Positions 10,202 to 49,498 of a stretch of 64,000 nt of DNA are shown piece after piece. A program made the translations under genes and the position numbers. The notes beneath the pieces are model-generated. The model saw nothing but the letters and a program-made list of their open reading frames with translations, was not told the origin of the DNA and did not search any database. The first letter of the stretch is position 1; every line of letters begins with the position of its first letter. The DNA comes from Psychrosphaera sp. B3R10 (GTDB taxonomy: Bacteria > Pseudomonadota > Gammaproteobacteria > Enterobacterales > Alteromonadaceae). The stretch covers positions 1 through 64,000 of the forward strand of contig NZ_JAHKQH010000030.1 of the NCBI RefSeq assembly GCF_018861025.1. Direction: 5' to 3'.

Positions 10202-10236
10202 CATTAGTAGCACTAAGCGGCCCTTGCTAATGTTTG

Positions 10237-10319
10237 ACCTAGTGTAAATTTGGCTATTATCTGTTTTCCTTTTTTTATAAATAAATAATAGAAAATAGAT
10301 AGTAGCCAACAGACTAGGT
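10237..10319. repeat. 83-bp imperfect inverted repeat
   Basis: Outer arms ACCTAGT (10237-10243) and ACTAGGT (10313-10319); inner arms at 10251-10268 and 10291-10308 are 16/18 complementary, with an AT-rich loop of about 22 nt. It may end cytochrome transcription (T8 run at 10268-10276) or be a small mobile-repeat relic. Confidence 0.6.
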
Positions 10320-10357
10320 ATATTCCTTAGTTCTCATCCTAAGGAAGGATTTATTAA

Positions 10358-10777: not shown

Positions 10778-10902
10778 AATATTTTGCTGAAATAAAATAA
10801 GCCTTCTTTGTTGTTCTGCTCTATTATTTATTTCTGTGACCTACGACGTAAAGTCATGACTTAAAAGTTCTATGGCCTAACAATCTACAATAGGGGAAAA
10901 GA

Positions 10903-17389: not shown

Positions 17390-17445
17390 AATGCTTCTCA
17401 TATTTTTTACTTTGACTTTAATTATTTACAAATAACAAAACCCAA

Positions 17446-19352: not shown

Positions 19353-19379
19353 CTTACTTTCTCCAATACTTTTTTTAAT

Positions 19380-19396
19380 TGCCCGCAAAGCGGGCA
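19380..19396 (-). other. intercistronic stem-loop between TonB receptor and lipoprotein genes
   Basis: TGCCCGC-AAA-GCGGGCA, a 7-bp GC-rich hairpin. On the minus strand it is followed by an A-rich rather than U-rich tract, so it is not a standard terminator. It may stabilise the upstream mRNA or set the ratio of receptor to lipoprotein. Confidence 0.6.
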
Positions 19397-19418
19397 GTTA
19401 TGATCCCAAGACAGTCGA

Positions 19419-23126: not shown

Positions 23127-23220
23127 AATCGTTCCCATCACCCTGTTGTTGTTAGTTTAGTGAGAGTCCTTTTGGTCAGTATCTCAATTAAGTAACCAAA
23201 GTTCACCCCAAAGCGCCAAA

Positions 23221-23432: not shown

Positions 23433-23509
23433 TTTATCTTGCAACTACTTTTTAACTGCACTAGTATCAATTAAAGAGAGCGTAATCAATTTTATAGGAA
23501 TTTGTGAGA

Positions 23510-24895
23510 ATGACATTAAGACGAATGCTCAAACTTTCCGCTTTGACCCTTATTACCAGCTTTTCATTGCTAGCTGAAGAGCAGGCTAAAACCCCTAATA
23601 TACTGTTTCTTTTGGCCGACGACTTAGGTTATGGCGAATTGGGCTCATATGGGCAACAAACCATTAAGACCCCTGAAATTGACAACCTCGCTGATAATGG
23701 GCTTAAGTTTACCGACTTCTATGCAGGTAATGCTGTTTGTGCGCCTTCTAGAGCCGTATTGATGACAGGGAAACATGCTGGTCATGCGACTATTCGGGGC
23801 AATAAAGGCATCTATGCCGACACTGGCCGCTGGGGCCGAGTTTCACTGCGTAAAGACGAACTTACATTAGGTAACATGATGCAAGATGCTGGGTACCAAA
23901 CAGCATTTATTGGTAAATGGCATTTAGAAAACCCCAATGACCTCGATACATGGGCGTACGCCAGAGGATTTGATTACGCTGTTCAAGAGCAATGGCAGCG
24001 GGCCGACAGTAAAATTTATTTTGATAAAACAACCCATTGGATTAATGGTGTTAATGACAAAAAACTTTACGACTATACTGAGTGGGACAACATTGACGAG
24101 TTTCGTACAAACTTTGCCACTGAATATTTAGACAATATTAAGTCTGACGACAAACCATTTTTTTTAGTTATGTCGTACCGTACACCGCCCCCGCATGAGC
24201 CCATGTTACGAAACAAGTCGATGTTTTCCGACAAAGACTGGGCCGAAGCTGAAAAACACCACGCACGTAAAATTACCTTGTGGGATAAGCAAGTCGGCCG
24301 TTTAATTGACCACCTTAAAATGATTGACGAGTTTGACAATACTTTAATTATCTTGACTAGTGATAATGGTGGCCATAGTGCGGCAGGTCATGACCATAAG
24401 TTCTTTACGAGTAATGGCCTTTTACGTGGTTTTAAGCGAGACCTATACAAAGGTGGAATTCGAGTTCCGCACATTGCGGTATGGCCCGGAAAAATCAAAC
24501 CGGGCGTGGTTTCTAAACATATCGGTGGTTTTCAGGATTTTATGCCGACATTTGCTGAGGTTGCCAATATCTCAAAACCACAATTTACCGACGGCATTTC
24601 AGTTTTGCCAATCTATCTAGGGAAAACCAACCAACAGGTTGAACACAAATATTTGTATTGGGAACAACAACGAAACAGCGATCCAAAAAAATCATTATTA
24701 CGTGCAATCCGCGAAGGTGACTGGAAAGCGGTGCAGGTTGGTACTGCAAATGCCATTGAGATTTACAATCTTAAAGACGATATGTCAGAAACAACAAATC
24801 TCGCCAAAAAGTACCCTGAAAAAGTAAAACGTTACCGCCAATTGTTTGCCGATTCGTCTACATATACAGCGCACTTCCCATATGCAAACGAATAG
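23510..24895 (+). CDS. S1-family sulfatase, exported (sulfatase B)
   Basis: 461-aa arylsulfatase-like enzyme. The ORF can open at GTG 23504, but the ATG at 23510 sits 9 bp after AGGAA and is preferred. Signal peptide at residues 1-22 (LSALTLITSFSLLA) without lipobox, so periplasmic or secreted. Metal-binding ADDLGYGELG; formylglycine signature Cys77-Ala-Pro-Ser-Arg in AVCAPSRAVLMTG; FIGKWHLENPND; TSDNGGHSAAGHDHKFF; C-terminal AIREGDWKAVQ. It resembles sulfatase H (41396) around FYAGxAVCAPSR and TGHxxIRGN. First gene of a three-sulfatase operon; the next start is 10 bp after its stop. Confidence 0.9.
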   Translation: MTLRRMLKLSALTLITSFSLLAEEQAKTPNILFLLADDLGYGELGSYGQQTIKTPEIDNLADNGLKFTDFYAGNAVCAPSRAVLMTGKHAGHATIRGNKGIYADTGRWGRVSLRKDELTLGNMMQDAGYQTAFIGKWHLENPNDLDTWAYARGFDYAVQEQWQRADSKIYFDKTTHWINGVNDKKLYDYTEWDNIDEFRTNFATEYLDNIKSDDKPFFLVMSYRTPPPHEPMLRNKSMFSDKDWAEAEKHHARKITLWDKQVGRLIDHLKMIDEFDNTLIILTSDNGGHSAAGHDHKFFTSNGLLRGFKRDLYKGGIRVPHIAVWPGKIKPGVVSKHIGGFQDFMPTFAEVANISKPQFTDGISVLPIYLGKTNQQVEHKYLYWEQQRNSDPKKSLLRAIREGDWKAVQVGTANAIEIYNLKDDMSETTNLAKKYPEKVKRYRQLFADSSTYTAHFPYANE

Positions 24896-24905
24896 GGACA
24901 CTACC

Positions 24906-26459
24906 ATGAACTCACTTAAACTATTAGCTAACTTTGCCGGGCTATGCCTTTTGGTTGCATGCTCTAACAACGAAATATCGCCAGATAAAATAGAGCCGTC
25001 TTCAAACAAACCAAACATCGTAATCTTTTATGTCGATGACTTGGGATGGGGCGATTTAAGTTCTTATGGTGCCACAGCGGTACAAACTCCTAATGTTGAT
25101 GCCCTCGCTAACAATGGGATCCGCTTTACGGACGCTCATAGTTCAGCTGCAACGTGCACCCCCTCGAGATACTCATTATTAACAGGTGAACACGCCTTTA
25201 GGAAAAACGTTCGTATCCTAAAAGGTGATGCGGCAATGGTAATTGCACCGGAGCAACCAACACTACCTAAAATGTTACAAACCGAAGGTTATAAAACCGC
25301 TGTTGTCGGTAAATGGCACTTGGGATTAGGCGATGGCGTAACCCCAATAAACTGGAATAAAAATGTCACACCAGGTCCATTGGAAATTGGTTTTGATTAC
25401 AGCTTTTTATTACCAGCAACGGGTGACCGAGTTCCCTCAGTTTATTTAGAAAACCACAATGTATTAAATCTAACTCCCAATGATCCACTTTTTGTCGACT
25501 ATACTAAAAAAATTGGTAACCGCCCTACCGGCTACGAACACCCTGAACTATTGCGCCAGGGAGCCGACAGCCAACATAACAAAACCATCATAAATGGCAT
25601 AAGTCGAATTGGTTGGATGCAAGGTGGTAAGTCGGCGGAATGGGTAGACGAGGACTTCCCTTTTGTAACTACACAAAAAGCCAATGACTTTATCTCTAAA
25701 AACAAGTCTCAACCGTTTTTTCTATTTTTCTCATTCCATGACATTCATGTGCCGCGCTTACCAAACAAAATGTTTGAAGGTGCTACAAACATGGGTGTAC
25801 GAGGCGACGCAATTGTCCAAATGGACTGGATAACAGGTCAAGTTGTCAACCATCTCAAAAAGCTCGATATGTTAGAAAATACCTTAATTATCTTTACCAG
25901 CGATAATGGTGCTGTGCTTACAGACGGTTACAATGACAATGCCCTTACGCGTATAGGCGAACATTTGCCAAATGGCCCCTACAGCGGTGGCAAATACAGT
26001 ATATTGGAAGGTGGAACTCGCGTCCCATTTATCGTTCACTACCCAAATAAAGTAAAGCAAGGACTGAGTCATGCGTTGTTCAGTCAAATTGACCTGTACG
26101 CTTCAATTGCAGCTTTATTAAATATTAACTTAAAAAATAATGAAGCAATTGACAGTGTAAACCATCTTGGTCCGCTATTTGATGCGGCACTGCCCGCACG
26201 TACCACTCTTGCTGAAGAAACACCTCATACCGAAGGGTTGCGCAGCGGTAATTGGAAATACATACGCCCGGTTAAAAAAGTCAACTCTTGGATTAAAGCT
26301 AATAAAAATATTGATTCCGGCCTGGCTAAGTCGCCGCAACTATTTAACTTAATTAGCGATCCTGCGGAAGAACATAATCTTGCACAACAATACCCCAATA
26401 TCGTTAAAGAGCTTGAACAGCAATTAAAACTTATTGAGCAAAAACGCACCCGAAATTAA
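24906..26459 (+). CDS. S1-family sulfatase, lipoprotein (sulfatase C)
   Basis: 517 aa. The ORF runs further upstream into sulfatase B, but the ATG at 24906 has AGGGACA before it and gives a clean lipoprotein signal with LVAC (Cys19). Metal-binding FYVDDLGWGD; formylglycine Cys84-Thr-Pro-Ser-Arg; VVGKWHLGLGDG; FHDIHVPRLPNKMFEG; TSDNGAVLTDG. A paralog of sulfatase A with nearly the same architecture and active-site neighbourhood, but encoded on the other strand and in another operon. Together they suggest recent duplication, or related specificities for two sulfate positions. Confidence 0.9.
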   Translation: MNSLKLLANFAGLCLLVACSNNEISPDKIEPSSNKPNIVIFYVDDLGWGDLSSYGATAVQTPNVDALANNGIRFTDAHSSAATCTPSRYSLLTGEHAFRKNVRILKGDAAMVIAPEQPTLPKMLQTEGYKTAVVGKWHLGLGDGVTPINWNKNVTPGPLEIGFDYSFLLPATGDRVPSVYLENHNVLNLTPNDPLFVDYTKKIGNRPTGYEHPELLRQGADSQHNKTIINGISRIGWMQGGKSAEWVDEDFPFVTTQKANDFISKNKSQPFFLFFSFHDIHVPRLPNKMFEGATNMGVRGDAIVQMDWITGQVVNHLKKLDMLENTLIIFTSDNGAVLTDGYNDNALTRIGEHLPNGPYSGGKYSILEGGTRVPFIVHYPNKVKQGLSHALFSQIDLYASIAALLNINLKNNEAIDSVNHLGPLFDAALPARTTLAEETPHTEGLRSGNWKYIRPVKKVNSWIKANKNIDSGLAKSPQLFNLISDPAEEHNLAQQYPNIVKELEQQLKLIEQKRTRN

Positions 26460-26497: not shown

Positions 26498-28051
26498 GTG
26501 AACATATTTAAATTCATATCAGTCATTATGTTAATTAACCTCTTAGCGGGCTGTAACGACAAACAAAAAACAACTAATTTTGAACAAGTTAGTTCCGAAA
26601 AAAAACCAAATGTCATTTGGCTAGTCCTAGAAGACATCTCTTTAGATTTAGGAGTGTACGGTACACCAGAAGTAAAAACCCCTAACCTAGATAGATTAGC
26701 AAATGAAGGTATTAAATACACAAATGCCTATGCTACCGCTGCAGTTTGTTCAACCTCACGCTCGGCATTTTTTACCGGCATGCATGCCACCAGTATAGGC
26801 GCCCACCATCACCGTAGTCACCTCAAAGATAACTATCGTTTACCAAATCACGTCAAACTGGCGTCTGAATATATGCGTGACGCCGGTTACTTTAGTTTAT
26901 TGATGGGGCCAAAACAAAAAACCGATTTTAACTTTTCTCATGCAGGAAAGGCTTTTGATGCGCAAGATGGCGAAATAAAATACTCTGGGGGCGCATATAC
27001 ACACGCTCCAATCGACATGAAACTCTTACAAAGACCTGCATGGCAAAGTTACATAAAGAACCAACAAGACAAACCGTTTTTTGCCCAAATCAACTACAGT
27101 GAAACTCATCGTACGTTTATCGCTGATAAAGATGATCCGATTGATCCGTCCAAAGTTAAGTTACCTAGCTACTATCCAGATCACGACATCACTCGCCGTG
27201 ACTGGGCCCTATACCTAGAGACAGTGCAGACTGTAGACAAAAAAGTCGGCAACTTGTTTGCCGAATTAAAAGAAGCTGGAGTGTTGGATAATACAATTGT
27301 ATTTGTCTTTGGGGATCATGGCCGAGCGATGTTACGAGACAAACAATGGTTATACGACGGTGGTCTGCAAGTACCACTTATTGTTTGGGGGAAAGGCATT
27401 GAAGGAGGTCAAACAAACCACGACTTAGTGAGCTTAATCGATGTTATGCCAACAACATTAGATATTGCTGGAATTGATGTACCTGACTACATTGAAGGAC
27501 ATGTATTTTTAGGTGATAACACCAAACCTCGTGATTATATTTATGCTCATAAAGACCGTTGTGATGAAACTGACGACAGAGTTAGAGCAGTGCGTGATAG
27601 CCGATTTAAATACATTCGCAACTTCTATCCAGAAAAACCATATACCGACTTTAATGCCTACAAGAAACTACAATATCCTGTTTTGGCACTTATGCAAAAG
27701 TTACATAACGAAGGTAAACTAACGCCTGAACAAGTCACGTTTTTTGCCAAACAACGACCGCCTGAAGAACTATACGATACCCGTACCGATCCAGATGAAG
27801 TGTATAACTTAGCGGCACAACCACAATACCAGACCCAACTTGTAACAATGAGACAAGAACTGGCACGTTGGCAACTAAAAACAGGTGATTTAGGAATGAT
27901 AGATGAAGATCCTAAAGTTTCTAAATATTGGGATGACTTTTTTAATAAACATTATCAAACCCAAATGGCTGCGCGTGGGTTATCAACGGACATTGGCCCC
28001 GATGAATATTTAGCCTTTTGGGATAAATTCATGTCCGACTTGGGCAAATAA
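26498..28051 (+). CDS. S1-family sulfatase, heparan N-sulfatase-like subgroup, lipoprotein (sulfatase D)
   Basis: 517 aa, GTG start 7 bp after an AAAGG SD. Lipobox LAGC (Cys19). Metal site WLVLEDISLD carries Glu-Asp instead of the usual Asp-Asp. The formylglycine signature is Cys84-Ser-Thr-Ser-Arg: the third position is Thr rather than Pro/Ala. GAHHHRSH, GPKQKTDFNF, FVFGDHGRAMLRDKQWLYDGG and AVRDSRFKYIRNFYP are typical of the sulfamidase-like branch of S1. The end-of-domain PPEELYDTRTDPDEVYNLA is standard. Last gene of the three-sulfatase operon. Substrate unknown; O-sulfated galactose is expected from the locus. Confidence 0.87.
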   Translation: MNIFKFISVIMLINLLAGCNDKQKTTNFEQVSSEKKPNVIWLVLEDISLDLGVYGTPEVKTPNLDRLANEGIKYTNAYATAAVCSTSRSAFFTGMHATSIGAHHHRSHLKDNYRLPNHVKLASEYMRDAGYFSLLMGPKQKTDFNFSHAGKAFDAQDGEIKYSGGAYTHAPIDMKLLQRPAWQSYIKNQQDKPFFAQINYSETHRTFIADKDDPIDPSKVKLPSYYPDHDITRRDWALYLETVQTVDKKVGNLFAELKEAGVLDNTIVFVFGDHGRAMLRDKQWLYDGGLQVPLIVWGKGIEGGQTNHDLVSLIDVMPTTLDIAGIDVPDYIEGHVFLGDNTKPRDYIYAHKDRCDETDDRVRAVRDSRFKYIRNFYPEKPYTDFNAYKKLQYPVLALMQKLHNEGKLTPEQVTFFAKQRPPEELYDTRTDPDEVYNLAAQPQYQTQLVTMRQELARWQLKTGDLGMIDEDPKVSKYWDDFFNKHYQTQMAARGLSTDIGPDEYLAFWDKFMSDLGK

Positions 28052-28704: not shown

Positions 28705-30669
28705 CTACTTTTTTAAATAATCAACTCGTGCAGAAAACCAGTTATAGATGCTTTTTTGACGCCAAGTATCTGGCGAATCAACCGTACCTTTGGCAGGTTT
28801 TTTCCAGGATTTTCTAAAGGGAATTTCGAAGTTTTCGCCCACAACATCGTGCAATTGTGTTGCAATATTGAGTATCGCTAATATTTGTACCGTATTAGTA
28901 TTCCCAGCAATAATTTTTTCGATAGCTTGTTTTGCCGGCTGATCGTCAAACAAGGCTAGGTATTGCACAGCGCGAGCACGATTTAAATCGTTTGGATCCA
29001 TATATTTCATTTGTGAAATTATCGGTTTAAGCATTTTAGCTTGTTGGCCAAATGCCAGCGCTACATTTAATCCCCAATATCGGATCCATTCGTTTTCAGA
29101 CGTAAGACTCGCTTTAATTTTATACTTAACAGAATCAAAATCCTGTAGTTGTAGATCGGCAATTTCGTTTAACTTGGCAATTTCTGACTTATTTTTTGCT
29201 CCAAACTTAATAGGATCGTCTTTTGCTTCATCAACTAAATAATACTCTGGGTAAAACCCAAGGTCAGGCAAGGTTTGAAGCTTATTTTTAAGTTCAGCTC
29301 TCATCGATTGAAGGACCGATTGATATTCCGCAGCATGTGCCAAATTTTTGGTTTCGAATTCGTCGGTCTCTAGGTTATAAAGTGCTTCAACAGGCTTGGT
29401 TTCAAAAAATGCGGCTTGTACAGATGTTAGCTCACCATTATCGAACATTTCGCGCCACTGCCTAAAAGCAGCCTGTTTATAGCGATAACTGGCAAATAAA
29501 CTGTCTGGATTAAACGGCAAATAATGACGCATGTATTTGTATTTACCTTTACGAAGAGTTCTCACCATGTCGTACTTTTCGTCAAAACGGTCGGCAAACG
29601 CAAAATTTGTATCACGCTTATTTAGCTCTGTTAAGCTTAATTTTTTAGCTAAAAACGATTGCCCGTCGTGTCCTGGCATAGCTTCGATACCAGCGAGTTT
29701 TAATAACGTTGGAGCAAAGTCGATAAAATTAACAAAACCATCAACCCATGTTGTTGACTTTGCCTGTAAGTCCTCGTGCACTAAATGTCTGAAATTTTCT
29801 GGCACTCGCACAACCAATGGCGGGTTTAGCCCCCGTTCAAATGCGTAACCTTTACTCCCTGGCATGACACCGCCATGGTCGCCAAAATAAAAAATAAACG
29901 TATCTTCTAACAAACCTTCGTCAGTGAGTTGTTTAATCACTTTGCCTATTTCGACATCTACAATTTCATGTTGGTCTAGGTAGCGTGCATGGGTATAACG
30001 AAATAGTTCGGTATCTGGGTAAATAGGCGCCAAATCAACCTTTGCTGGATCATTTTTTGTGGGCCTGTCCTGCACGTCTGACATCGGAAAGTGTAATTTA
30101 TGTTCATGGGTCTCTTTCCAACTTTGCATATGGAAAAAAGGTTGGCCAGCTTTACGTCCGTGCCAATCAGCTCCCTTTGCGGATTGGGCCCAGTGCGCTT
30201 CTGGTGCAACAAAATTGTAATCTTCTTTGTGATTATTAGTGGTGTAGTATCCAGCATCTTTTAGATATTCATTAACGGTTGTCATCCCGTTTGGTAATGA
30301 AATAGTTTGATAAGGGCGATGATATTCCATTGCCAAACGCGCAGGATAGGCACCTAAAGCCAATGTGGTTCTTGCCGTAGAGCATACTGGTGCATTTGAC
30401 AAAACATTGTTAAATACCAGCCCTTGTGCCGCTAATCCTTCAATATTAGGCATTGATGCGCCTTTCGGATTATACAATTTGAGGTAGTTCTTCGAGTTGT
30501 CCTCTGATACCAACCATACAAAATTTGGTTTTTTGGGTGATACCACAGTATTTGATTCGAGCTCGACTGCCGTTTTTCTATCAGTGTTTTCACACGCTGA
30601 TAAGATCAACAAACTTACAATTGACGTAAAACATAAAATTGCCGACTTAGTCACCGATGGCTTTTTCAT
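28705..30669 (-). CDS. S1-family sulfatase with C-terminal helical extension, lipoprotein (sulfatase E)
   Basis: 654 aa, longer than the others. Lipobox LSAC (Cys26). Metal site WLVSEDNSKNY; formylglycine signature Cys96-Ser-Thr-Ala-Arg (third position Thr, non-canonical); FYFGDHGGVMPGSKGYAFERG; LRKGKYKYMRHY. After the usual end (VEALYNLETDEFETKNLA) there are about 200 extra residues. Roughly 510-610 look like HEAT-type helical repeats (SENEWIRYWGLNVALAFG; RARAVQYLALFDD; TVQILAILNIATQ). Start at 30669 has AGGGGATAAA before it. A LacI-type site lies about 174 bp upstream and a terminator follows, so it is monocistronic. Confidence 0.88.
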   Translation of the reverse strand: MKKPSVTKSAILCFTSIVSLLILSACENTDRKTAVELESNTVVSPKKPNFVWLVSEDNSKNYLKLYNPKGASMPNIEGLAAQGLVFNNVLSNAPVCSTARTTLALGAYPARLAMEYHRPYQTISLPNGMTTVNEYLKDAGYYTTNNHKEDYNFVAPEAHWAQSAKGADWHGRKAGQPFFHMQSWKETHEHKLHFPMSDVQDRPTKNDPAKVDLAPIYPDTELFRYTHARYLDQHEIVDVEIGKVIKQLTDEGLLEDTFIFYFGDHGGVMPGSKGYAFERGLNPPLVVRVPENFRHLVHEDLQAKSTTWVDGFVNFIDFAPTLLKLAGIEAMPGHDGQSFLAKKLSLTELNKRDTNFAFADRFDEKYDMVRTLRKGKYKYMRHYLPFNPDSLFASYRYKQAAFRQWREMFDNGELTSVQAAFFETKPVEALYNLETDEFETKNLAHAAEYQSVLQSMRAELKNKLQTLPDLGFYPEYYLVDEAKDDPIKFGAKNKSEIAKLNEIADLQLQDFDSVKYKIKASLTSENEWIRYWGLNVALAFGQQAKMLKPIISQMKYMDPNDLNRARAVQYLALFDDQPAKQAIEKIIAGNTNTVQILAILNIATQLHDVVGENFEIPFRKSWKKPAKGTVDSPDTWRQKSIYNWFSARVDYLKK

Positions 30670-30842
30670 TTTATCCCCTGACAACCTTGGTGTTTTAGAG
30701 TATCAATTTATTGCTAATTTTAAACTCACCATCAAGGCTTGCAATAAAATCCATATTTATTAAATATATACTCTTAAAACCAACGCATAATTTTATTCTA
30801 GAATTAAGTTAATAAAGATAAAATACTACAAAACAAACAAAA

Positions 30843-31303: not shown

Positions 31304-33967
31304 TTAGTACCCTACGTCAATAAACCGCACCGAACCTGCAGGAACCGTTACTAAGCTCGTGCCCTTGCCTGTTTCGATGCCTTGATTAGACAAAATATCT
31401 TTAGCCCACTTTGGCTGTCTATTATTAAACTTTATGGTTGCTACACGTTCCTGCGGGTTAATATACCCAGGGTCTATTAAAATAATGCGACTGTGGTTGT
31501 CATCTAATTTAACTACACTCCATGATGCACCGGTCACTTCAATTGGCATTTTTACACGACCACTATCGATAACGGCTTTCATAGATGGTTCAAAGTTTTT
31601 TGCGGACACTTTTTTATTACCGCTAAAACCTGAAATACCATCTGTTATAAAATAATTAGTTTCTAATTTATCTAGCTTATTTTTTGATTCAATCGGCGCG
31701 ATTGGAACCATACCATTAGGTAGTTCTGGTACAAAGTTAAGCCAACGATACTCCGCACCAAGTGCAGAACTAGAATAATCCCATGTTGGAATATTGGCAC
31801 CAGCCCAATGCATTTGCGCTACAGAGATGATGGCATCTTCATCTGCTTTATTGTAGTGGTTTGTCTCATGAATATTATCTATCGAATGCACTAAATGGTT
31901 ATCTACATCTTGCATTAACATCCATGAACCTACGGATAACATTGCATCTTTTTCAACAATAGGTAAAACACCAGACTTCATTAATGCAAACAGAATATTT
32001 AGACCAGGGCCTTCCAGATAATTGATGTCAAATATGATCCCCATGCGAGAACCATAAGCAGCTGTTAATACACCATTACGTAAATAAGGTGAAACACTAC
32101 GTTGCCCACCAGGGCTTAATGGACGCCAAGTCGTCGGATTATCATCGACTAACCTCATAGCAAAGTCATCGATATAATCGCCAAGTAACATTCCGACACG
32201 GCCGGACAAGTTTACTTCTTGCGTCCGTGAAGAGGTATCTTCTGCAGACGGAACTAAGATGTCGCTATATTTACCTGAGAAGAACATGTCTTTCCAAGGT
32301 TGTTGATGTGACGTCGCCGCCCAGAAAATATTTTTATATCTAAAATAAAGCTTACCTTTGCCATGTTTACGTAAAGCTTTTGCTAAACGGGGCATGTACT
32401 CTTCAATAAAATAAATCACCCGAGGATCTTTAGGGTTATGCATTTCAGCATACAAAAAGCCCATTGCTGTAGTTGGTGCGGCTTCTAAAATAGCTTCCAT
32501 TGTATCAATGCTTACCCCAAACGGGTCGTTGCCATGACCAGACCATATAACAAAGTTTTCCCCCTTCTTTTCAAACGCTTTTGCTTTTTTAATCAGGGTA
32601 GCCTGTGTATCTTTGTACTTTCCTCGTCGATCTTTTTTCAATGCTATTTTTCCCAGCTTGGGGACTAATGATTGGCGATCCCAATTTTCCGTCCAACGCT
32701 CCTGAGTAACATGTAAATAGTTAGCACCGTCTAATGCCTGAACTTTTTTGTTAAGTTGTGCTTTGGTCAACATAACCCAAGGTTTTTCAGACTTTGATTG
32801 ATAACTTGGCATTTTAAAATCAAGTGTTTGCTGATAAAGCGTATTTAAATTTTGTTCAACTTCAGCCAAACGGCCCTGTAATTTATGTTCGACGTCAATC
32901 CAGTTCTTATTTTTTAGATCAAATTCATAAACAGTATTTCCGCCACCGATTTGGCCGCCACCTAGTAAGGTTTTGTTGTTTTCATCAAGTGCAAAGTCGT
33001 TAAAAATTATCCCCCGGTGGCGTTCTCCCGTTTGCTTAAGTAACTTGCCTTTGGGATCAACTAAAAACATCACACCGCCAAATTGAAACATTATTTCATT
33101 ACGCAAAGGCAAAAGTGAGCTGCCGTATGCATGGGCGTAACGTTGCTTTTCTTTACCTTTAATATTGTAATGTGCAAGTAGATCAAACTTACTGTTATAC
33201 GCAACAAATTTACCTACAGTATTTTTTGAAGTTTTACCTCCAGCAAAAAATAACAGATCATCCAAGCCGTCTTGGTCTAAATCAGCGATATCAATGTCGG
33301 TGATCATTACGCCTTTTGCCAATTCTTTTAGTTTTTTGTCTTTGTTATTAAACTGACGGATCACCTTTTTAGATTTAGGGTCGATAAATCCTAAAAATTG
33401 CCAGCGGTAGATATCGTGAACCGAAGTCTGGACAAATAAGTCAGATTTAGTTTTGTCATTAAAGTGACCAGCTTCAATTTTTCTCACTACACCATCAAGC
33501 TTAGTTTCGCTTAACAGCTCCCCCTTACTGTTTAATTCATAAAGTATGTAGTTGTTACCACCAGCATAAACTCGAACTTCACCATCAACTTTAGTAATTG
33601 CGACTTCATTTAGACGAGTTTTATCCCTCGGGGTAAATGTCCAGAGTCGAGTACCATTGCTATCCCACGCATAGATACTGCCATCTCCACTTGCAGCAAC
33701 TAGATCGTCAGCACCGTCGCCATTTAAATCCGCGGTATTAATTTCGAACATTACGGCTTTATTATCTGTGGCCGCTGTCCAGCGTTTCTGACCATCGACC
33801 CTATAGCTTCCCACTACACCGTCAAGTTCTGACACATACACAACTGACTCACCCGCTACGTTACCAATGATTACCTGACGCAACCCGTTACCGTCAGTAA
33901 CAAATGTGCTGGCGTGCGCCGCAACACTCATCACTAATACACTTGCAGCAATTAATATTTTTTTCAT
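31304..33967 (-). CDS. exported beta-propeller plus catalytic-domain protein, candidate GH150 lambda-carrageenase
   Basis: 887 aa. Signal peptide MKKILIAASVLVMSVAAHA. Residues 25-350 form an FG-GAP/VCBS-like beta-propeller with Ca-binding loops DLNGDGADDL (80-89) and DLDQDGLDDL (229-238) and GDGSIYAWDSNGTRLW. A helical linker (about 355-385) leads to a C-terminal domain of about 500 residues with no common CAZyme signature but many acidic and aromatic motifs (FVIWSGHGNDPFG, MGFLYAEMHN, YFRYKNIFWA), and a beta-rich end (TSLVTVPAGSVRFIDVGY). The known GH150 lambda-carrageenase of Pseudoalteromonas carrageenovora (about 940 aa) has the same reported layout, an N-terminal propeller joined to a C-terminal catalytic region. 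With GH110 and sulfatases in the same operon, GH150 is my leading call. Alternative: another endo-hydrolase, or a binding protein. Confidence 0.55.
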   Translation of the reverse strand: MKKILIAASVLVMSVAAHASTFVTDGNGLRQVIIGNVAGESVVYVSELDGVVGSYRVDGQKRWTAATDNKAVMFEINTADLNGDGADDLVAASGDGSIYAWDSNGTRLWTFTPRDKTRLNEVAITKVDGEVRVYAGGNNYILYELNSKGELLSETKLDGVVRKIEAGHFNDKTKSDLFVQTSVHDIYRWQFLGFIDPKSKKVIRQFNNKDKKLKELAKGVMITDIDIADLDQDGLDDLLFFAGGKTSKNTVGKFVAYNSKFDLLAHYNIKGKEKQRYAHAYGSSLLPLRNEIMFQFGGVMFLVDPKGKLLKQTGERHRGIIFNDFALDENNKTLLGGGQIGGGNTVYEFDLKNKNWIDVEHKLQGRLAEVEQNLNTLYQQTLDFKMPSYQSKSEKPWVMLTKAQLNKKVQALDGANYLHVTQERWTENWDRQSLVPKLGKIALKKDRRGKYKDTQATLIKKAKAFEKKGENFVIWSGHGNDPFGVSIDTMEAILEAAPTTAMGFLYAEMHNPKDPRVIYFIEEYMPRLAKALRKHGKGKLYFRYKNIFWAATSHQQPWKDMFFSGKYSDILVPSAEDTSSRTQEVNLSGRVGMLLGDYIDDFAMRLVDDNPTTWRPLSPGGQRSVSPYLRNGVLTAAYGSRMGIIFDINYLEGPGLNILFALMKSGVLPIVEKDAMLSVGSWMLMQDVDNHLVHSIDNIHETNHYNKADEDAIISVAQMHWAGANIPTWDYSSSALGAEYRWLNFVPELPNGMVPIAPIESKNKLDKLETNYFITDGISGFSGNKKVSAKNFEPSMKAVIDSGRVKMPIEVTGASWSVVKLDDNHSRIILIDPGYINPQERVATIKFNNRQPKWAKDILSNQGIETGKGTSLVTVPAGSVRFIDVGY

Positions 33968-33994: not shown

Positions 33995-35404
33995 CTATTG
34001 AACACCTGAGTATTTGTCAATATTTAAGTCTTTTTCCCAATCAATTAACTTAGCCTTTAGCTCTTGCAATTTTTTCGGGTAAATTTTTGCAACATCATTT
34101 GATTCACTTACATCTAGTACCACATTATAAAGTTTAACGATGCCGCTTCTGTAGGCGACAATCTTCCAGTCACCTTCTCGCACCGACGCGTACAAATCTT
34201 CGTAAGCACGATAACCAAATAAAGGCGCTCCGCGTTCTATTTTTGTTCCATTGGTTATCGCTGAAAGCAATGAGATACCATCTAAATTTTGGTAGTTTTT
34301 GGGATCGCCGCCAGCAAGTTCGACAAGGGTTGGGAACAAGTCTGTTGACTGAACTGGCGTCGAAATTTTTGTTCCTGGATTAGTGACATTGGGCCAACTG
34401 ACAAATAACGGTACGCGAGCACCACCTTCATATAAAGTGTCCAGCTTCTTACCGCCATGAAGTGGTTTATTCTCTAAAATCCCACCTTGATCAGATAGGA
34501 AAATAATCACCGTATTTTTATCTAACCCACTAGCTTTTAATGCCTTACGAATTCGACCGATTGACTCATCAATCCCACTTACCAGCGCAGCATGATGCGC
34601 TTTTTTGCCGCTCAAGCCTTTTTTCTCAAAATGTTCAACTAGGTCTTTACGACCTTGAAATGGAGTGTGAATCGCGTAGTACCACATAGACATCATAAAT
34701 GGCTGGTTTTTATCATAACTTGCAATAAATTCGACCGCGTCGTCGGTAAGCTTGTCTGTTAGATAACGTTCCTTAACCTCGTTGTATACTTCCGAATTTT
34801 TAAAGTATGGTGGGTAGTAAGAATGAGGGTGTCCCCAGTTTGTAGCACCAATCTGTGCGTCAAACCCTTGATCGATTGGATGATAGCCTTCGTGGCCCAA
34901 GTGCCATTTACCTATAAACATATTAAAGTAACCTTGCTCTTTGAGCGCTTCTGCGTAAGTTACATAATCGGTTTCTAGCCAATTTACACTCGGTACTTGA
35001 GCCGGATCTTTTTGCCAAAAATTGAATTTAGTCTCAGTACGGCCAAATTTGTCAAACCCGTGTTGTGGTTTATGTGGAATATGCCTTGGCATACCTATTC
35101 GTGCAGGATGTTGACCAGTGACCAAAGCAGCTCTGCTTGGGCTGCAAGTTGGTGTTGGAATATAGGCACTTTCAAATTCAATACCATCAGTAGCTATCTG
35201 GTCAATATTTGGGGTTTCATATACGTCATCCCTCGCTGTACGTGACGCCCAACCCATGTCGTCAACAAAAAACAAGACAACGTTAGGTTGCTTTTGCTTC
35301 GACTTAAATAGAGTTGCAGCATCTGCTTCACCCGCTATCATGCCACTAAGAATATAGGAACTAACTAAACCGGCTGCTAACAATGTTGATTTTACTTTAG
35401 ACAT
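33995..35404 (-). CDS. S1-family sulfatase, exported (sulfatase F)
   Basis: 469 aa with a Sec signal peptide (about residues 1-30, ending GEADA) and no lipobox. Metal site FFVDDMGWAS; formylglycine signature Cys87-Ser-Pro-Ser-Arg in PTCSPSRAALVTGQHPARIG; FIGKWHLGHEGYHP; WYYAIHTPFQGR; LSDQGGILENKPLHGGKKLDTLYEGGARVP; VREGDWKIV. This is the N-acetylgalactosamine/galactose-type arrangement common in marine S1 enzymes; subfamily not assigned. SD AAGGGAT supports the start. Fits in the operon between GH110 (9-bp gap) and the GH150-like gene (27-bp gap), so co-translation with these enzymes is likely. Confidence 0.9.
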   Translation of the reverse strand: MSKVKSTLLAAGLVSSYILSGMIAGEADAATLFKSKQKQPNVVLFFVDDMGWASRTARDDVYETPNIDQIATDGIEFESAYIPTPTCSPSRAALVTGQHPARIGMPRHIPHKPQHGFDKFGRTETKFNFWQKDPAQVPSVNWLETDYVTYAEALKEQGYFNMFIGKWHLGHEGYHPIDQGFDAQIGATNWGHPHSYYPPYFKNSEVYNEVKERYLTDKLTDDAVEFIASYDKNQPFMMSMWYYAIHTPFQGRKDLVEHFEKKGLSGKKAHHAALVSGIDESIGRIRKALKASGLDKNTVIIFLSDQGGILENKPLHGGKKLDTLYEGGARVPLFVSWPNVTNPGTKISTPVQSTDLFPTLVELAGGDPKNYQNLDGISLLSAITNGTKIERGAPLFGYRAYEDLYASVREGDWKIVAYRSGIVKLYNVVLDVSESNDVAKIYPKKLQELKAKLIDWEKDLNIDKYSGVQ

Positions 35405-35413: not shown

Positions 35414-37270
35414 TTACTGTGGTTTAGTTGGAGTTAATAACTGGGTTTTGTTCTGGTCGAATCCGACAAACGTGTTATTTTCTGAAATGTTGACGCCATC
35501 ACTGTGGTCAACGACAAATAACGATTGATATTGGTCACGCTCTGGGTATTCGGTTGTTTTTTCAATGTTATTGTTTTGAAATGTAACACCGGAAACTGAA
35601 AACAAATTTAAAATTGGCGCCATATCAAACACCTTAAATAAGTTGTTTTCGATAATAATATTTTTATTATATCGTGATGTGTGTTGATATTTTTTATCAA
35701 TACCTGCGGCAACTGCGATAACCCCGCGCCCCCATTGACTATAAAAACTATTGTCAAATACATTATTGCGAATAACAGCATGGCTTACACCACCCTGTTC
35801 GTACCAAAAATTAGCGTCACCCTCGAACAAAATGGCTGAACCAGGAGAGTGAAAATAGTTGTCTTCGACCAAGGTTTTGCCACGGCTATTTAACAGCATG
35901 CCCCGCGCGCGGTTTTGTCGTATAATATTGCCTCGAATAGTAACTTCTGCGTAGTCTCTAACTTCAGCAATTGAGTCACCCACTTTGAGCTTTTTATTAA
36001 ACGGTTGAGTAAAAACAACTCGCGTTATTTCTTGGCTGATCCTGTGACTCGACGCCACTTCAATCGTGGCATACGTTGTCATACTTGGTGCATCCACCAA
36101 TTCTAAGATGTCGCCACTGTCGATAAAGTCAAAGCCATATTGTTGGGGATGTTGCAATCTAACTTCTATGGTTTTATCGTCAATCACTTTATCAACCGCA
36201 ACATAAATACCGTGAATGTTGGTCGCATCATCTTTTTGGTTTTCAAATAGATTATTTATTAACTGAACCTTGCCAGTGCAATTTACAAAATGAGTGGCGT
36301 CTGCCGTCGTACTAACCATTCGACCTTTGCTTGGTGTGACCTTAGAATTTTGCACAGTGACATTATGGCAACGCTGCCCTAATACTCCCATACCACCGGC
36401 ATGATGAATTGTAATGTTGTCGAGAATGACATCTGCACTGTCTGAAATAACAACCGCAGGATAGCTACGATGTTTAAATTGAAACACCAATACATTGCCA
36501 ATTTGGGCGGTTATTTTAGGATGAAACACCCGTACATTATTTTTACCAGGTAGGTTTATCGCCGACAACCCGTTGCCAGTGCTGATATCTTTGACCATAT
36601 AAGCTGTTTCACGCTTTCGCGAATCAAACTCTAGGACACGTTTATACTGGTAGTCAGTTTCTTTTTCGACGGCTTTGCGGCGTTCTAGCTTGTTGATCGT
36701 TAATTTACCCGGAGGGTTTTCAACTTTCGCTTGGAATTTAAGTAAACCAGCTTCGTTTATTTTATACGGGAATAAATCAGAAAAATGCAGATCTAAATAC
36801 CCTTCGCCACCATCAAGTACGCTTCCTTCTGAATGAAAACTTCTGGAAAAATCCATAGAAAAGTTACTAAATGTAATATTACTGCTGCTATCAATAACAA
36901 ATGGGTTTACGCCACCATGAAAGATAAACTCAGAACCTTGGCCATCTATTTCTAACCCCTGTATATCGTAAAGCGGAAAGATAATCCGTTTAACTCCAGG
37001 GTCATTGTTACTGATATACACCACCTTTTCGGCTGCTCTGTCACCATAAAAGTGGTAAGTGCCTTTTGGGAATATCAGTTTACTCGCACCTTGTTGTTTA
37101 GCGGCTATAATCGCCTGGTAGACACCATAAGTACTGTCCGTACCGTTATTTTTTTCAACATTAAACTCAGATACATTGAGGACTGAATCGGCCAACAGTA
37201 GATTGCTGAAAAACAAGATACCTATGGCAAAACAAAACTCTACGGTTTTTTGTGTTGCTAATTTCAACAT
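35414..37270 (-). CDS. GH110 family exo-alpha-1,3-galactosidase, copy 1
   Basis: 618 aa from the ATG at 37270, which has AGGAAAAGG upstream (the ORF extends to 37306). N-terminal signal peptide or anchor (EFCFAIGILFFSNLLLA). Right-handed parallel beta-helix with repeated short strands (VILDNITIHHAGGMGVLGQRCHNVTVQNSKV). Likely catalytic acids Asp324 in TADATHF and Asp347-Asp348 in KDDATNIHG, with the 23/24-residue spacing of characterised GH110 enzymes. GH110 inverts and removes terminal alpha-1,3-galactose, including from lambda-carrageenan fragments and blood-group B antigen. Second gene of the operon; clearly diverged from copy 2, so different sulfation preferences are possible. Confidence 0.85.
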   Translation of the reverse strand: MLKLATQKTVEFCFAIGILFFSNLLLADSVLNVSEFNVEKNNGTDSTYGVYQAIIAAKQQGASKLIFPKGTYHFYGDRAAEKVVYISNNDPGVKRIIFPLYDIQGLEIDGQGSEFIFHGGVNPFVIDSSSNITFSNFSMDFSRSFHSEGSVLDGGEGYLDLHFSDLFPYKINEAGLLKFQAKVENPPGKLTINKLERRKAVEKETDYQYKRVLEFDSRKRETAYMVKDISTGNGLSAINLPGKNNVRVFHPKITAQIGNVLVFQFKHRSYPAVVISDSADVILDNITIHHAGGMGVLGQRCHNVTVQNSKVTPSKGRMVSTTADATHFVNCTGKVQLINNLFENQKDDATNIHGIYVAVDKVIDDKTIEVRLQHPQQYGFDFIDSGDILELVDAPSMTTYATIEVASSHRISQEITRVVFTQPFNKKLKVGDSIAEVRDYAEVTIRGNIIRQNRARGMLLNSRGKTLVEDNYFHSPGSAILFEGDANFWYEQGGVSHAVIRNNVFDNSFYSQWGRGVIAVAAGIDKKYQHTSRYNKNIIIENNLFKVFDMAPILNLFSVSGVTFQNNNIEKTTEYPERDQYQSLFVVDHSDGVNISENNTFVGFDQNKTQLLTPTKPQ

Positions 37271-37411
37271 TAACCTTTTCCTATTGATTGCAATTACTGT
37301 GGGCATAAGTAATTTGTTATTATCCGTTGGATTGTAAGTTAAGAACTAACTTTGTTCAGGTGGAAAAGGAGACTGTCGTTGTCGTCCCTTACCACTTGAG
37401 TAAAAAGTTAA

Positions 37412-39217
37412 TTAACGAATGGAATCGTCATTATTTAGAGTTTGTTTTGAAACCAAATCAGCCTTAACTGCCGTACGTGGTTTGCCTGTATAAGTATTGT
37501 TTTCTAATGTTACGTTGTGGCTATTAGCAAATTCAAATAAAGCGGCTTTTGGATGTAACTGTTGTTGCGGTAAACTTTGATCAATAACATTGTCTTTGAT
37601 TAAAAGGCCATCAACTCGGTCAGCCCAAACAATTCGAGTCCCAAAGTTACTAATTGTATTATCGATAAACTTGATGTTTTTGTCATAACTTTGGGATTGA
37701 TCAAAGCTTTTACCAAGTCTTGGTGTGATATATAAAACTGCGTGTTCTTTGCCAGATGAAGCAACATACTCAAAGGAATTATTGCGAATAGTGACATCTT
37801 CAACGCTGCCGGATTCATACCAAAAATACGTTTCTCCGCGCAATAGGATTGACGACATCATTGACGAAAATTGATTGTTTTCGATAATCGTTTTTAACGG
37901 CGATTTCACCACTACATTGCGAGCTCTATGATCACGAATTACGGTGCCACGCATAGTGAACTCCGGATTCCATGTTTTATTTTCTAGTAAATCCCCTTTA
38001 GCCAACTGTGTTGGAAGGTTATGCTTGAAGCGGATCTCTGTATACATTTCGTTTATTACACGAACAGAATCAACTGTAGCGACACTGGCTCTTTCGACGT
38101 TTGGTTGGTGAATAAACCAAACTTCGTCTCCCTTGCCGACAAAATCAAATCCTGTTTGCTCAAAGTGACCAAACTTAATGCGTAGTGTTTTTTCGTCAAT
38201 CACTTTATCAACAATGGTGTATGTACCATGCACATTTGTACCGTCGTCCAACATGTTCTCAAAACGACTATTTTCAATTAAAATTTTACCTTTACAGTTT
38301 GCAAAATGCGTGGCGTCTGCAATAGTAGAAATTAGCCGCTGTGCGTCGTCACGTAAATGCACGCCTGAGTTTAGTACTTGAATATTGTCGCTACGCTCAA
38401 ACAAAAACCCCATGCCCAAAGCGTGGTATACCACGACATTGTCAAATATCACGTTGCTAGAATTTTTGGTTTGAAAGGCCGGTGCATAACGATGAAGGTG
38501 GCGATCACCTTTAGAGCTTGTTAATGAACCAACTGGTGGATAGCTTTTCAATTTTTCGTGGATACGTAATAGACCATTAGCAAGCTTTTCAACTTTTTGA
38601 GGTTTGCTTTTACTATCCAACGCGCCATGAACTGGTCGTTTTTCCTTTTTAGTCCAAGCTAACGTTGAACCCAACTCAGTAAAGCTAAAACCATCTACGT
38701 TGGGGAATTTTATTTGTCCTTTTTCCAAAGACCATTGATGCGAATTAGACCAAGGTTTTACGTCGCGGTAACCTTTTTTTTCATTTACAGCGACAATTTC
38801 TGATACAAAGGTAAACGGTATGTCCCAATCAACAATGATGTTTCGGATTGTAACATTGTCATTATTGTATAGCTGAAAAGGCGCTGACTGGCCGTGAAAA
38901 ATAAATTCAGAACCTCCACCGTCAACTTCTACCGACTTAAAGTTGTCTAACGGAAAAATAACGTTTTTTACACCATTACCATGATTAGTTACTTTGCTGT
39001 ATCGCGAAGTCGCGAAATCAGGTAGAAATTTGTAGATGCCTTTTTTGAAAACAATCTTAACTTCATCGTCTTTAACCTTTTCTAATGCTGCACGAACCAC
39101 TGGTGTCATGTCATTTGAGGTTGGTTCAAACACTAATGTTTGTTTGGCCATTACGCTTGTGGAACATAACGCTAGTAAGCCAATTAACGTTAACTTTAAA
39201 CTGCATCGTGTTTTCAT
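37412..39217 (-). CDS. GH110 family exo-alpha-1,3-galactosidase, copy 2
   Basis: 601 aa. Signal peptide MKTRCSLKLTLIGLLALCSTSVMA; SD GAGGAT. Beta-helix with VEVDGGGSEFIFHGQSAPF near the N-terminus as in copy 1. Catalytic-type acids Asp301 in IADATHF and Asp324-Asp325 in LDDGTNVHG, same spacing. C-terminal strands include VRDHRARNVVVKSPLKTIIENN and SILLRGETYFWYESG. First gene of the unit GH110-GH110-sulfatase F-GH150-like, with the LacI-type operator 221 bp upstream. The 141-bp gap to copy 1 could hold a weak internal promoter; no clear operator was seen there. Confidence 0.86.
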   Translation of the reverse strand: MKTRCSLKLTLIGLLALCSTSVMAKQTLVFEPTSNDMTPVVRAALEKVKDDEVKIVFKKGIYKFLPDFATSRYSKVTNHGNGVKNVIFPLDNFKSVEVDGGGSEFIFHGQSAPFQLYNNDNVTIRNIIVDWDIPFTFVSEIVAVNEKKGYRDVKPWSNSHQWSLEKGQIKFPNVDGFSFTELGSTLAWTKKEKRPVHGALDSKSKPQKVEKLANGLLRIHEKLKSYPPVGSLTSSKGDRHLHRYAPAFQTKNSSNVIFDNVVVYHALGMGFLFERSDNIQVLNSGVHLRDDAQRLISTIADATHFANCKGKILIENSRFENMLDDGTNVHGTYTIVDKVIDEKTLRIKFGHFEQTGFDFVGKGDEVWFIHQPNVERASVATVDSVRVINEMYTEIRFKHNLPTQLAKGDLLENKTWNPEFTMRGTVIRDHRARNVVVKSPLKTIIENNQFSSMMSSILLRGETYFWYESGSVEDVTIRNNSFEYVASSGKEHAVLYITPRLGKSFDQSQSYDKNIKFIDNTISNFGTRIVWADRVDGLLIKDNVIDQSLPQQQLHPKAALFEFANSHNVTLENNTYTGKPRTAVKADLVSKQTLNNDDSIR

Positions 39218-39696: not shown

Positions 39697-41304
39697 CTAT
39701 TGAAATTTTTTACGATAAACATCTTCAATTTCTTCATAATAACTATCCTGTGGTTTTGGCATCCATGTTGGCCACTCAACAGGTTGATACAGCTTATCGC
39801 CTCGGATCTTCAAAGTATCCGAATGCGCTTTACGATAGGATTCACACTGGACACTAACGCAGTAGCGCCCCCACAAGTCTAACGTTTCTTTAATTGCTGT
39901 TTCAGATTCTGGGTAAGCTCCTTTGTCATCGGTCTCCTTAATCCAACGATTAAGAACCTGTCTATGTTGCAATAACGTTTCTTTGTAGTTGCTATCGGAG
40001 GCAAGGTTGTTTATCTGATGTGGATCTGCAACTAAATCATATAATTCTTCTTCAGGTTTAGTTGGAGCAAAGTATTCAGCCTGTACAGGTGTTAGTTTGC
40101 CTTGTTCAAATAGTTCACGAAATTCAATGGAGAAGTCTTTTTTATCACGGAATTGCGGTTGAGATCGCGATAACTCTGGATGAAACTGACGAATATAGCG
40201 GAATCGTTCCGATCGAACTGTTCTTGAACGGTCAAAGGTAAAGTCCATTCTATCCTTTGCTGAAATAACATATTCACGACCTTTAAAGTCGTCAGCAAAT
40301 ATATTTTTTCCATCGTAATATTCAGGTATTGATATTCCAGCCAAGGCCAATGACGTTGCTGGGATATCTAAACCACTAATAAGGTCGTTACGTACCTTGC
40401 CTTTTTGTTGCAGTGCTTGTTGACCCGCTGGCCAATTAATAATAAGTGGTACTTTAACACCGTCTTCGTATAACTCTTGTTTATGGCGCAACAGACCCAT
40501 GCCGTGATCTGAAAACCAAAATACCGCTGTATTTTCCAAAATGCCATTAACTTCTAGTTGTTGCAAAATTTCAGCAAGTTCATTATCAGACATGATTTGC
40601 GTTTGATAATGTTTTGCCCATTCGCGGCGAGTCGCTGGCGTGTCGGCATAATATGGGGGTAGTATCAATTTTGTTGAATCGACGTCAGCAATATTCTTTT
40701 TCTTCATGCTGTTATGTTTACCGCCTTTTAATTGGATTTGACCAAAAAACGGTTTATCTTTAAGCTTTGTTGCCCAATCAAATTTTTCACCGTCGTGACT
40801 TCCTTGAAACCCTTTAATACCGCGATGAGCATTATATAATTTGCTCCTGTCGTATTTAAAGTTATAGTCGTCTTTACCAATGTTAAACGTTTGATAACCT
40901 GCGTTTATAAACACCTCAGGTACAGTTTTGTATCCTTCAGGGAGAAATAAGCCATTATAGCTGCTGCGGTTTGAACGATGTTCATGTACGCCTAATGTCG
41001 TTTGAAACTTACCTGTAATAAGTGCTGAGCGCGTAGCTGAACAGACAGGTGCAGGTTGATTAGCATTTGTAAATCGTACACCACCTTCGGCAAACTTTTT
41101 TATATTTGGCGTCGAGACGGTAAAATCACCATACGCATTGTTCCATGCATTTTGGTCTTCAATGTAGATCCACAAAATATTTGGTTTAGAGTGAGGCTCG
41201 GTTATCGTTTTAGCATCAACCGATTGTACTTCATTTTGTACATCTTGATTGGCACATGCTGCTAACAATATTATCGTTGTACTAATTATTAATTTTGACC
41301 ACAT
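39697..41304 (-). CDS. S1-family sulfatase, heparan N-sulfatase-like subgroup, lipoprotein (sulfatase G)
   Basis: 535 aa. Lipobox LAAC (Cys17). Metal site WIYIEDQNAWNNAYGD with Glu-Asp; formylglycine signature Cys88-Ser-Ala-Thr-Arg in APVCSATRSALITGKFQTTLG; GVHEHRSN and NIGKDDYNFKYD in place of the HHHRS segment of sulfatase D; FWFSDHGMGLLRHKQELYEDG; VRSERFRYIRQFHPE; standard PEEELYDLVADPHQINNLA. The long C-terminal tail (about 485-535) includes CSVQCESY. It groups with D and E by sequence feel. Last gene of the operon GH2-H-G; a 91-bp gap precedes it, and no separate operator was seen. Confidence 0.87.
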   Translation of the reverse strand: MWSKLIISTTIILLAACANQDVQNEVQSVDAKTITEPHSKPNILWIYIEDQNAWNNAYGDFTVSTPNIKKFAEGGVRFTNANQPAPVCSATRSALITGKFQTTLGVHEHRSNRSSYNGLFLPEGYKTVPEVFINAGYQTFNIGKDDYNFKYDRSKLYNAHRGIKGFQGSHDGEKFDWATKLKDKPFFGQIQLKGGKHNSMKKKNIADVDSTKLILPPYYADTPATRREWAKHYQTQIMSDNELAEILQQLEVNGILENTAVFWFSDHGMGLLRHKQELYEDGVKVPLIINWPAGQQALQQKGKVRNDLISGLDIPATSLALAGISIPEYYDGKNIFADDFKGREYVISAKDRMDFTFDRSRTVRSERFRYIRQFHPELSRSQPQFRDKKDFSIEFRELFEQGKLTPVQAEYFAPTKPEEELYDLVADPHQINNLASDSNYKETLLQHRQVLNRWIKETDDKGAYPESETAIKETLDLWGRYCVSVQCESYRKAHSDTLKIRGDKLYQPVEWPTWMPKPQDSYYEEIEDVYRKKFQ

Positions 41305-42904: not shown

Positions 42905-42913
42905 AATCAACTC

Positions 42914-45433: not shown

Positions 45434-45474
45434 ATGTATTCCTGTTTCAACATAGATATCCACACCAACCAGTA

Positions 45475-49373: not shown

Positions 49374-49498
49374 AAATACAAGTCCATTTCAATCAGTGCC
49401 GCCGTAAAACAAGGTCAAAACAAAAGTAAATTATTTCCCTTTACTATCCCTTCTCTCTCACCCAATATAATTAACAAAAGATAAATTTGAAAAGTGAT

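Follow-up and report, generated by a model that had tools for sequence, protein, structure and literature searches.

The 64,000-nucleotide stretch of Psychrosphaera sp. B3R10 studied here (RefSeq assembly GCF_018861025.1, contig NZ_JAHKQH010000030.1, positions 1 to 64,000; hereafter the window) carries an open reading frame (ORF) on its minus strand, at 31304-33967, whose 887-residue product is, judging from sequence comparison, a GH150 endo-lambda-carrageenase of the GH150B type. We consider the enzyme and its role, taken together, very probable. The family is already known and the gene itself is ordinary in kind, a further GH150B. AlphaFold2 modelling, residue invariance and alignment with family GH98 additionally point to E508, D609 and E576 as candidate catalytic residues.

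The frame is intact over 887 codons and starts with ATG. Judged by eye, the N-terminus is a Sec-type signal peptide (residues ~1-19) ending in AHA (residues 17-19), and a pattern search revealed no lipobox. In an hmmscan against Pfam, the full set of three domains that define the lambda-carrageenase family GH150 scored above their gathering cut-offs: Beta-prop_CGLA (residues 45-343, E 1.4e-23, 84 bits), CGLA_M (428-767, E 2.3e-56, 192 bits) and CGLA_C (814-885, E 2.2e-19, 70 bits). FG-GAP/propeller models also matched residues ~45-343. AlphaFold2 modelled the whole protein from 76 alignment rows with a mean predicted local distance difference test score (pLDDT) of 92.3 and a predicted template modelling score (pTM) of 0.92. 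The predicted layout comprises a beta-propeller (~18-354), a (beta/alpha)8 barrel (~395-770) and a C-terminal beta domain (~771-887).

The original prediction, made from the sequence alone, had described a propeller-fused hydrolase resembling the GH150 lambda-carrageenase of Pseudoalteromonas carrageenovora, and had proposed a GH150 profile search and a structure prediction as checks. Both agree with it, as the exact ORF and the propeller are real, the lambda-carrageenase profiles match and the model has the propeller-plus-catalytic layout. The "unfamiliar ~500-residue C-terminal domain" that it mentioned is present as a region, but consists of two domains, the barrel and the beta domain.

A tblastn search of plasmids returned two records only, P. 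carrageenovora pKCTC22325 (63.9% identity, full length) and a Flammeovirga plasmid (26.6% identity over 67% of the length). The former encodes WP_104644241, a second GH150 which is like the window protein in layout and 64-65% identical to it over the full length. It is annotated as hypothetical and flanked by a GH2 gene, two GH110-type genes and two sulfatases. The content of its locus is that given for polysaccharide utilization locus (PUL) 8 of strain 9T, which contains "a second GH150 lambda-carrageenase" (Gobet et al. 2018, PMC6262041); the match was made by content, and identity of the strains is assumed. The same plasmid encodes WP_104644226, which we take to be CglA because it lies beside a kappa-carrageenase-type GH16 gene and is the plasmid's only other tblastn match. 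It shares the three-domain layout, and BLASTP aligned it with the window protein at 24% identity over 943 columns (E 5e-75).

With an identity to CglA of merely 24-26% over the full length, the protein might be thought to found a new family of endo-galactanases, which was the fall-back of the original prediction. We regard this as extremely improbable, given the three GH150 domains above cut-off and the relative at 64-65% identity in a locus with a GH150 already named in print. The fall-back is thus superfluous.

Activity of the two GH150 types has been described for P. distincta U2A. Its purified GH150A and GH150B both produced ladders from lambda-carrageenan, not from kappa- or iota-carrageenan (Vickers et al. 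2025, PMC12549532). U2A GH150B, which is likewise similar in layout to the window protein, is 26% identical to CglA and, unlike CglA, also releases incompletely sulfated oligosaccharides; about 70% of its tetrasaccharides were fully sulfated (PMC12549532). One point counts against carrying these properties over to the window protein: the closeness of U2A GH150B to the P. carrageenovora copy rests on published synteny.

To place the protein within its family, we used relatives from 84,980 species genomes. Either of two peptide patterns matched 200 stretches, 131 of which encode relatives; the best 80 of the 131 were used (75 distinct loci), a cut that truncates the A-type numbers. Kept relatives, the window protein and three plasmid proteins gave a 79-sequence alignment with 32 B-type sequences (defined by more than 45% identity to the window protein), 45 A-type sequences and 2 intermediates. 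In a quick tree the 32 B rows formed one clade separate from CglA, and within it the window protein was sister to the second P. carrageenovora GH150; the Shimodaira-Hasegawa-like approximate likelihood ratio test (SH-aLRT) gave 100 in both cases. The tree program warned that the join between A and B lies between long branches. The two types also show fixed differences at many positions, and their mean lengths differ (888 residues for B versus 952 for A). A lipobox was tried as a marker of type and rejected, as it occurs in none of the 32 B-type and in three of the 45 A-type sequences (CglA included). Among viral contigs, 64 stretches matched the patterns and none encodes a relative.

Genomes with a B-type gene usually carry an A-type gene as well. 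Taking 435 bits or more to CGLA_M as an A-type match (B types score 172-216), at least one was present in 29 of the 30 other B-type genomes searched, Zobellia barbeyronii being the exception, and the P. carrageenovora plasmid carries both types. The Pontiella sulfatireligans genome has as many as 10 CGLA_M matches over the cut-off. In the window genome (a 4.7-Mb draft in 48 contigs, rated 100% complete) the single CGLA_M match is the B gene. A second GH150, which is present in both published gammaproteobacterial cases but is not known to be required, was not found in this draft. The claim of the original prediction that no other endo-enzyme is present therefore holds for GH150, but six GH16 matches exist on other contigs. 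Searches of 59 further relatives and of the remaining 368 genomes of a class sample (the two sets share a few genomes) gave no GH150 match, and this rarity among relatives fits horizontal gain. By 16S, the best match of the host in the plasmid collection was a Pseudoalteromonas sp. at 92.5%, in keeping with a gammaproteobacterium fairly close to that genus.

The missing GH150A partner could also mean that the gene has decayed or persists as a non-catalytic relic, and that some other enzyme starts the pathway. This seems highly unlikely, since the frame is intact, the surrounding frames are open and all residues invariant in the 79 homologues are retained. These residues are H478, D481, E508, R543, K545, E576, R605, D609, N610, R615, Q622, D730 and R741, so that CglA and the window protein have them in common; the five acids among them (D481, E508, E576, D609 and D730) are all kept in the window protein.

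The predicted fold of the catalytic domain gives a first indication of how these residues may act. Eight strands are predicted, at 397-401, 417-424, 471-478, 501-507, 539-544, 571-575, 603-606 and 642-645, with helices between them, and we read this alternation as a (beta/alpha)8 barrel. These elements recurred when AlphaFold2 was run on residues 360-887 only (pLDDT 90.2, pTM 0.92); this model was made because propellers filled the second structure comparison of the full-length model, for which GH98 occupied Foldseek rows 1-3. With the domain model, Foldseek rows 1-25 among solved structures were all GH98 (E 2.6e-11 to 1.6e-6). VIA-align 2, applied to the 1000 chains ranked highest by Foldseek, likewise placed 21 GH98 entries first (Z 14.8-18.8, 375-403 residues aligned, root-mean-square deviation (rmsd) 3.6-4.5), the top match having Z 18.8 with 388 residues at 3.6 A. 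Alpha-agarase came next (Z 12.5), followed by assorted barrels at Z 12.0 and below. On this predicted model, the catalytic domain is thus a GH98-like (beta/alpha)8 barrel. A high Z value indicates a common fold, which by itself does not imply a common function.

Among the chains compared, the closest solved folds are the GH98 endo-beta-1,4-galactosidases Sp3GH98, Sp4GH98 and RgGH98 and the endoxylanase BoGH98, all endo-acting. Their substrates, blood-group glycans or complex xylan, are unlike lambda-carrageenan, and in RgGH98 a beta-sandwich takes the N-terminal place that the propeller occupies in GH150. On a Lutibacter citreus contig (locus L096, G428:C32:227035-227622), a 690-residue ORF situated between GH150 genes matches the GH98 model PF08306 at E 1e-8 and may encode an enzyme of GH98 type belonging to a carrageenan locus.

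Profile comparison with hhalign extended the likeness to sequence. For the GH98 side, 15 GH98-type ORFs were searched with a core profile; the 13 that matched were trimmed and used, and two (L105 and L107) were dropped for want of a listed match. Against these 13 rows, GH150 (all rows) scored 46.3, with a probability of 61% and E 8e-5. Shuffling the columns of the GH98 alignment 200 times gave no score as high (best 29.2), and reversing it gave 15.4. GH150 scored 19.1 with the profile of GH2, which is likewise a barrel, 16.4 with that of GH110 and 15.2 with that of S1, and the GH98 profile scored 23.5 against GH110 and 17.2 against S1. When the rows were divided, A plus intermediate rows gave 49.9 (75.1%) and B rows only 35.3 (16.1%), while six close GH98 rows gave 26.7 (1.7%) and seven divergent ones 32.8 (7.9%).

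Several results weigh against kinship with GH98. A first GH98 set of five untrimmed rows was negative (probability 0.4%), and the probability depends on the rows chosen: it is 61-78% when the full set of 13 GH98 rows is compared with GH150 rows of either the whole family or the A type, and 1.7-17% when the GH150 side is cut down to B rows or one subset of the GH98 rows is taken. The GH98 profile scored 35.0 (7.8%) against GH2, within about 11 points of the 46.3 for GH150, so the GH98 profile alone can give middling scores with another barrel. The full-alignment Foldseek superpositions of rows 1-25 are loose (TMq 0.41-0.53, rmsd 8.1-12.7). A profile search of the sequences of solved structures returned one chance match and no GH98 chain, and the Pfam GH98 model had no listed match to the window protein at E up to 1. 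From the latter we conclude that the relationship is distant and does not amount to GH98 membership. In addition, phmmer with the whole protein against the same sequences found propeller and chance matches, none of them GH98, and GH150 itself has no relatives among the solved sequences searched.

On balance, we favour the view that GH150 and GH98 are of common descent. Lambda-carrageenases acting on seaweed and gut enzymes that cleave blood-group glycans would then belong to one superfamily of endo-beta-1,4-glycan hydrolases with a common barrel and an acid Glu at strand 4 (E508 in the window protein, Glu361 in BoGH98). The link was not found in print in the open-licence papers searched, and the term "GH98" is absent from PMC12549532.

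GH98 enzymes invert. Key catalytic residues of the B. ovatus GH98 xylanase are Glu361 and Asp467, and a strain with both replaced lost activity (PMC4491172); the general acid of RgGH98 is Glu411 (PMC8730463). In solved GH98 chains a Glu stands in an EQFW motif and is altered in the entry titled E361A as well as in 9h6h, and an Asp belongs to an R-F-D motif further on; counted by hand, the two lie 106 residues apart, as 467-361 requires. The catalytic Glu is matched by E508 at a posterior of 0.87 with all rows and of 0.97 with B rows, and E576 aligns with a GH98 Lys (0.82). No acid/base pair for GH150 is named in the parts of the literature examined. Neither U2A enzyme crystallised, and a conserved patch in a deep cleft was presumed to hold the catalytic machinery (PMC12549532). 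Docked arginines have been listed for a lambda-carrageenase (PMC11202985).

We consider E508 a likely candidate for the acid. The base is harder to assign. The GH98 Asp aligns to V607 with all rows (0.36) and to D608 with B rows (0.19), not to D609, which is one or two residues away, and with A rows plus the window protein the E508 region aligned poorly (0.11), to a different Glu; both results add to the points against the GH98 relationship. D609 was chosen as candidate base, although it has no reliable GH98 partner, because an Asp stands at 609 in 79 of 79 rows and at 608 in 32. The chances that it is the base appear about even, which makes it likelier than E576, the main alternative.

A different view is that GH150 has only the barrel in common with GH98 and uses another pair, for instance Glu576 with Asp609, Glu508 being structural or substrate-binding. 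E576 and D609 are as invariant as E508, E576 falls on a Lys in GH98, the alignments of E508 and the Asp vary with the rows used, another barrel family also scores against the GH98 profile and the model contains no ligand. We hold this to be the less probable reading, as the 21 GH98 entries lie 2.3 or more Z units above all the other barrels compared, and the profile score beats both the shuffled and the reversed controls, with GH150 against GH2 reaching just 19.1. GH98-like hydrolysis by GH150, as suggested by the model and the alignments, remains somewhat favoured.

Thirteen window genes, GH150 included, matched 13 different P. carrageenovora plasmid genes at 50-83% (one-way tblastn), and eight neighbouring enzyme genes matched lambda-carrageenan genes of that species at 60-75%. 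The window counterparts span one stretch of ~37 kb (15.8-52.6 kb), in which genes of two separate plasmid loci sit together. The P. carrageenovora loci are plasmid-borne, whereas the window locus is probably chromosomal, with argS and prfC in the same window.

Genes in common with the P. carrageenovora GH150B locus lie mostly around the GH150 gene (64%). Two GH110-type alpha-1,3-galactosidases, correctly noted in the original prediction, are encoded on the minus strand at 35414-37306 (GH110x; Pfam GLAA-B domain II and beta-helix; 63% to the plasmid gene beside GH150) and 37412-39217 (GH110y; 66%); both match GLAA-B barrel and beta-helix models. Sulfatase S1e (28705-30684, minus; Pfam Sulfatase; CSTAR motif) is 60% identical to the sulfatase adjoining GH150 on the plasmid, and S1g (39697-41304, minus; CSATR) is 70% identical to a plasmid sulfatase that would be S1_8 if the locus is PUL 8 (PMC6262041). 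A GH2 beta-galactosidase (42914-45463, minus; 72%), a LacI-family regulator (48283-49314, minus; 73%) and an MFS_2 sugar transporter (49487-50875, plus; 67%) complete this set.

Counterparts in the second plasmid locus (PUL 9 by content) are the S1 sulfatases S1a (15842-17401, minus; 75% to an arylsulfatase), S1c (24846-26459, plus; 73% to an arylsulfatase) and S1d (26498-28051, plus; Pfam Sulfatase; CSTSR motif; 73% to a sulfatase near the TonB receptor), together with a TonB-dependent receptor (19419-23141, minus; 50%), which probably imports oligosaccharides, and a sodium:solute symporter (51082-52644, minus; 83% to a sodium/sugar symporter).

Lying outside the U2A set are the sulfatases S1b (23504-24895, plus; best plasmid match 31%), S1f (33995-35404, minus; Pfam Sulfatase; CSPSR; 32% in the plasmid stretches compared) and S1h (41396-42910, minus; CAPSR; 32%), a second GH2 (45608-48040, plus; no close plasmid counterpart, 26% over half its length) and a 608-residue predicted lipoprotein (17562-19388, minus). 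S1b is 63% identical to a gene at locus L034 of a Colwellia metagenome-assembled genome, a locus that also contains both GH150 types. The lipoprotein adjoins the receptor, has VIGC near its N-terminus (by eye) and matched no Pfam or NCBIfam model; it may be a new surface glycan-binding protein. The cluster thus holds eight sulfatase genes, not the single one reported in the original prediction. In S1d, S1e and S1g the Pro normally found in the maturation motif C/S-x-P-x-R is absent.

S1f ends 27 bases upstream of the GH150 gene, and the gaps further upstream measure 9, 105, 479, 91 and 3 bases. Given these distances, the genes from GH2 (end 45463) through GH150 may form one or two transcription units. 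Neighbours of other GH150 genes were counted at 40% identity or more within flanks of ~10 kb: no gene is common to most B loci, the most frequent being S1g (14 of 31), and GH110y counterparts occur in 4 of 31 B loci and 18 of 46 A loci.

On gene content, the window would supply the U2A cascade without GH150A, namely GH150B, two GH110, GH2, three S1_8 and two S1_15 sulfatases (labels inferred from the counts for PULs 8 and 9 in PMC6262041). In the proposed pathway, an exported, endo-acting GH150B would open degradation by hydrolysing beta-1,4 links of lambda-carrageenan to even-numbered neocarra-oligosaccharides. The receptor and symporters of the locus would then import the products, which the S1 sulfatases, the two GH110 enzymes and the GH2 beta-galactosidase would dismantle from the non-reducing end; this order is modelled on P. 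distincta U2A, where it was shown. Within the enzyme, the chain would lie in a cleft over the barrel, and catalysis would proceed as in GH98: Glu508 at the end of strand 4 may serve as general acid, and water may be activated by Asp609, which follows strand 7, or else by Glu576, which follows strand 6. The propeller is probably part of the cleft, because deletion of an N-terminal PQQ-like stretch in another lambda-carrageenase lowered specific activity and gave longer products (PMC11202985).

The three sulfatases and one GH2 without close counterparts in the plasmid loci fit this pathway less well. They could instead serve a wider diet, the GH150 enzyme itself preferring an undersulfated or hybrid lambda-type galactan. 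The incompletely sulfated products of U2A GH150B are in line with such a preference (PMC12549532), and the distinct A and B clades co-occurring in 29 of 30 genomes suggest a division of labour. We find this preference doubtful, since U2A GH150B did cut lambda-carrageenan and its tetrasaccharides were for the most part fully sulfated (PMC12549532), and since without GH150A in the draft genome the B enzyme would have to start on bulk polymer. Lambda-carrageenan accordingly stays the substrate we propose.

Other parts of the window may also serve in polysaccharide use. At 467-11802 we observed anhydrogalactose/galactonate-type genes, namely GntR, KDPG/KHG aldolase, DGOK, and a sugar porter and a multiheme cytochrome with matches of 61% and 52% on the carrageenan plasmid of P. 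carrageenovora. The region also encodes a protein of family GH127, which matched the NCBIfam model for aceric acid hydrolase below its cut-off; the whole, next to argS and prfC, may be part of a locus for kappa/iota-carrageenan. The region at 56346-63956, with an Alginate_lyase/Hepar_II_III polysaccharide lyase, cupin, MFS, PfkB kinase, KDPG/KHG aldolase, FBA and FBPase, looks like a locus for alginate or another uronate.

Outside this genome, what appears to be a bacterial carrageenan locus makes up the faecal record MT835799.1 (L005), whose label is "UNVERIFIED: Bacteriophage sp.". It encodes an A-type GH150 (943-residue ORF at 17883-20714) with relatives of the window GH110, sulfatase and GH2 genes, and one ORF that by eye resembles a transposase. 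This suggests that the record is mislabelled and that human gut bacteria carry GH150.

If the link between GH150 and GH98 is true, GH150 gains its first testable active site. The link would tie the galactanases of sulfated seaweed polysaccharides to the well-studied GH98 enzymes acting on blood-group glycans, and it names single residues. A family that resisted crystallisation in a biochemical study (PMC12549532) would also obtain a predicted fold and a hypothesis for its catalysis. The locus itself is unusual in seemingly working without GH150A, and it could show whether a B enzyme alone starts the breakdown of lambda-carrageenan.

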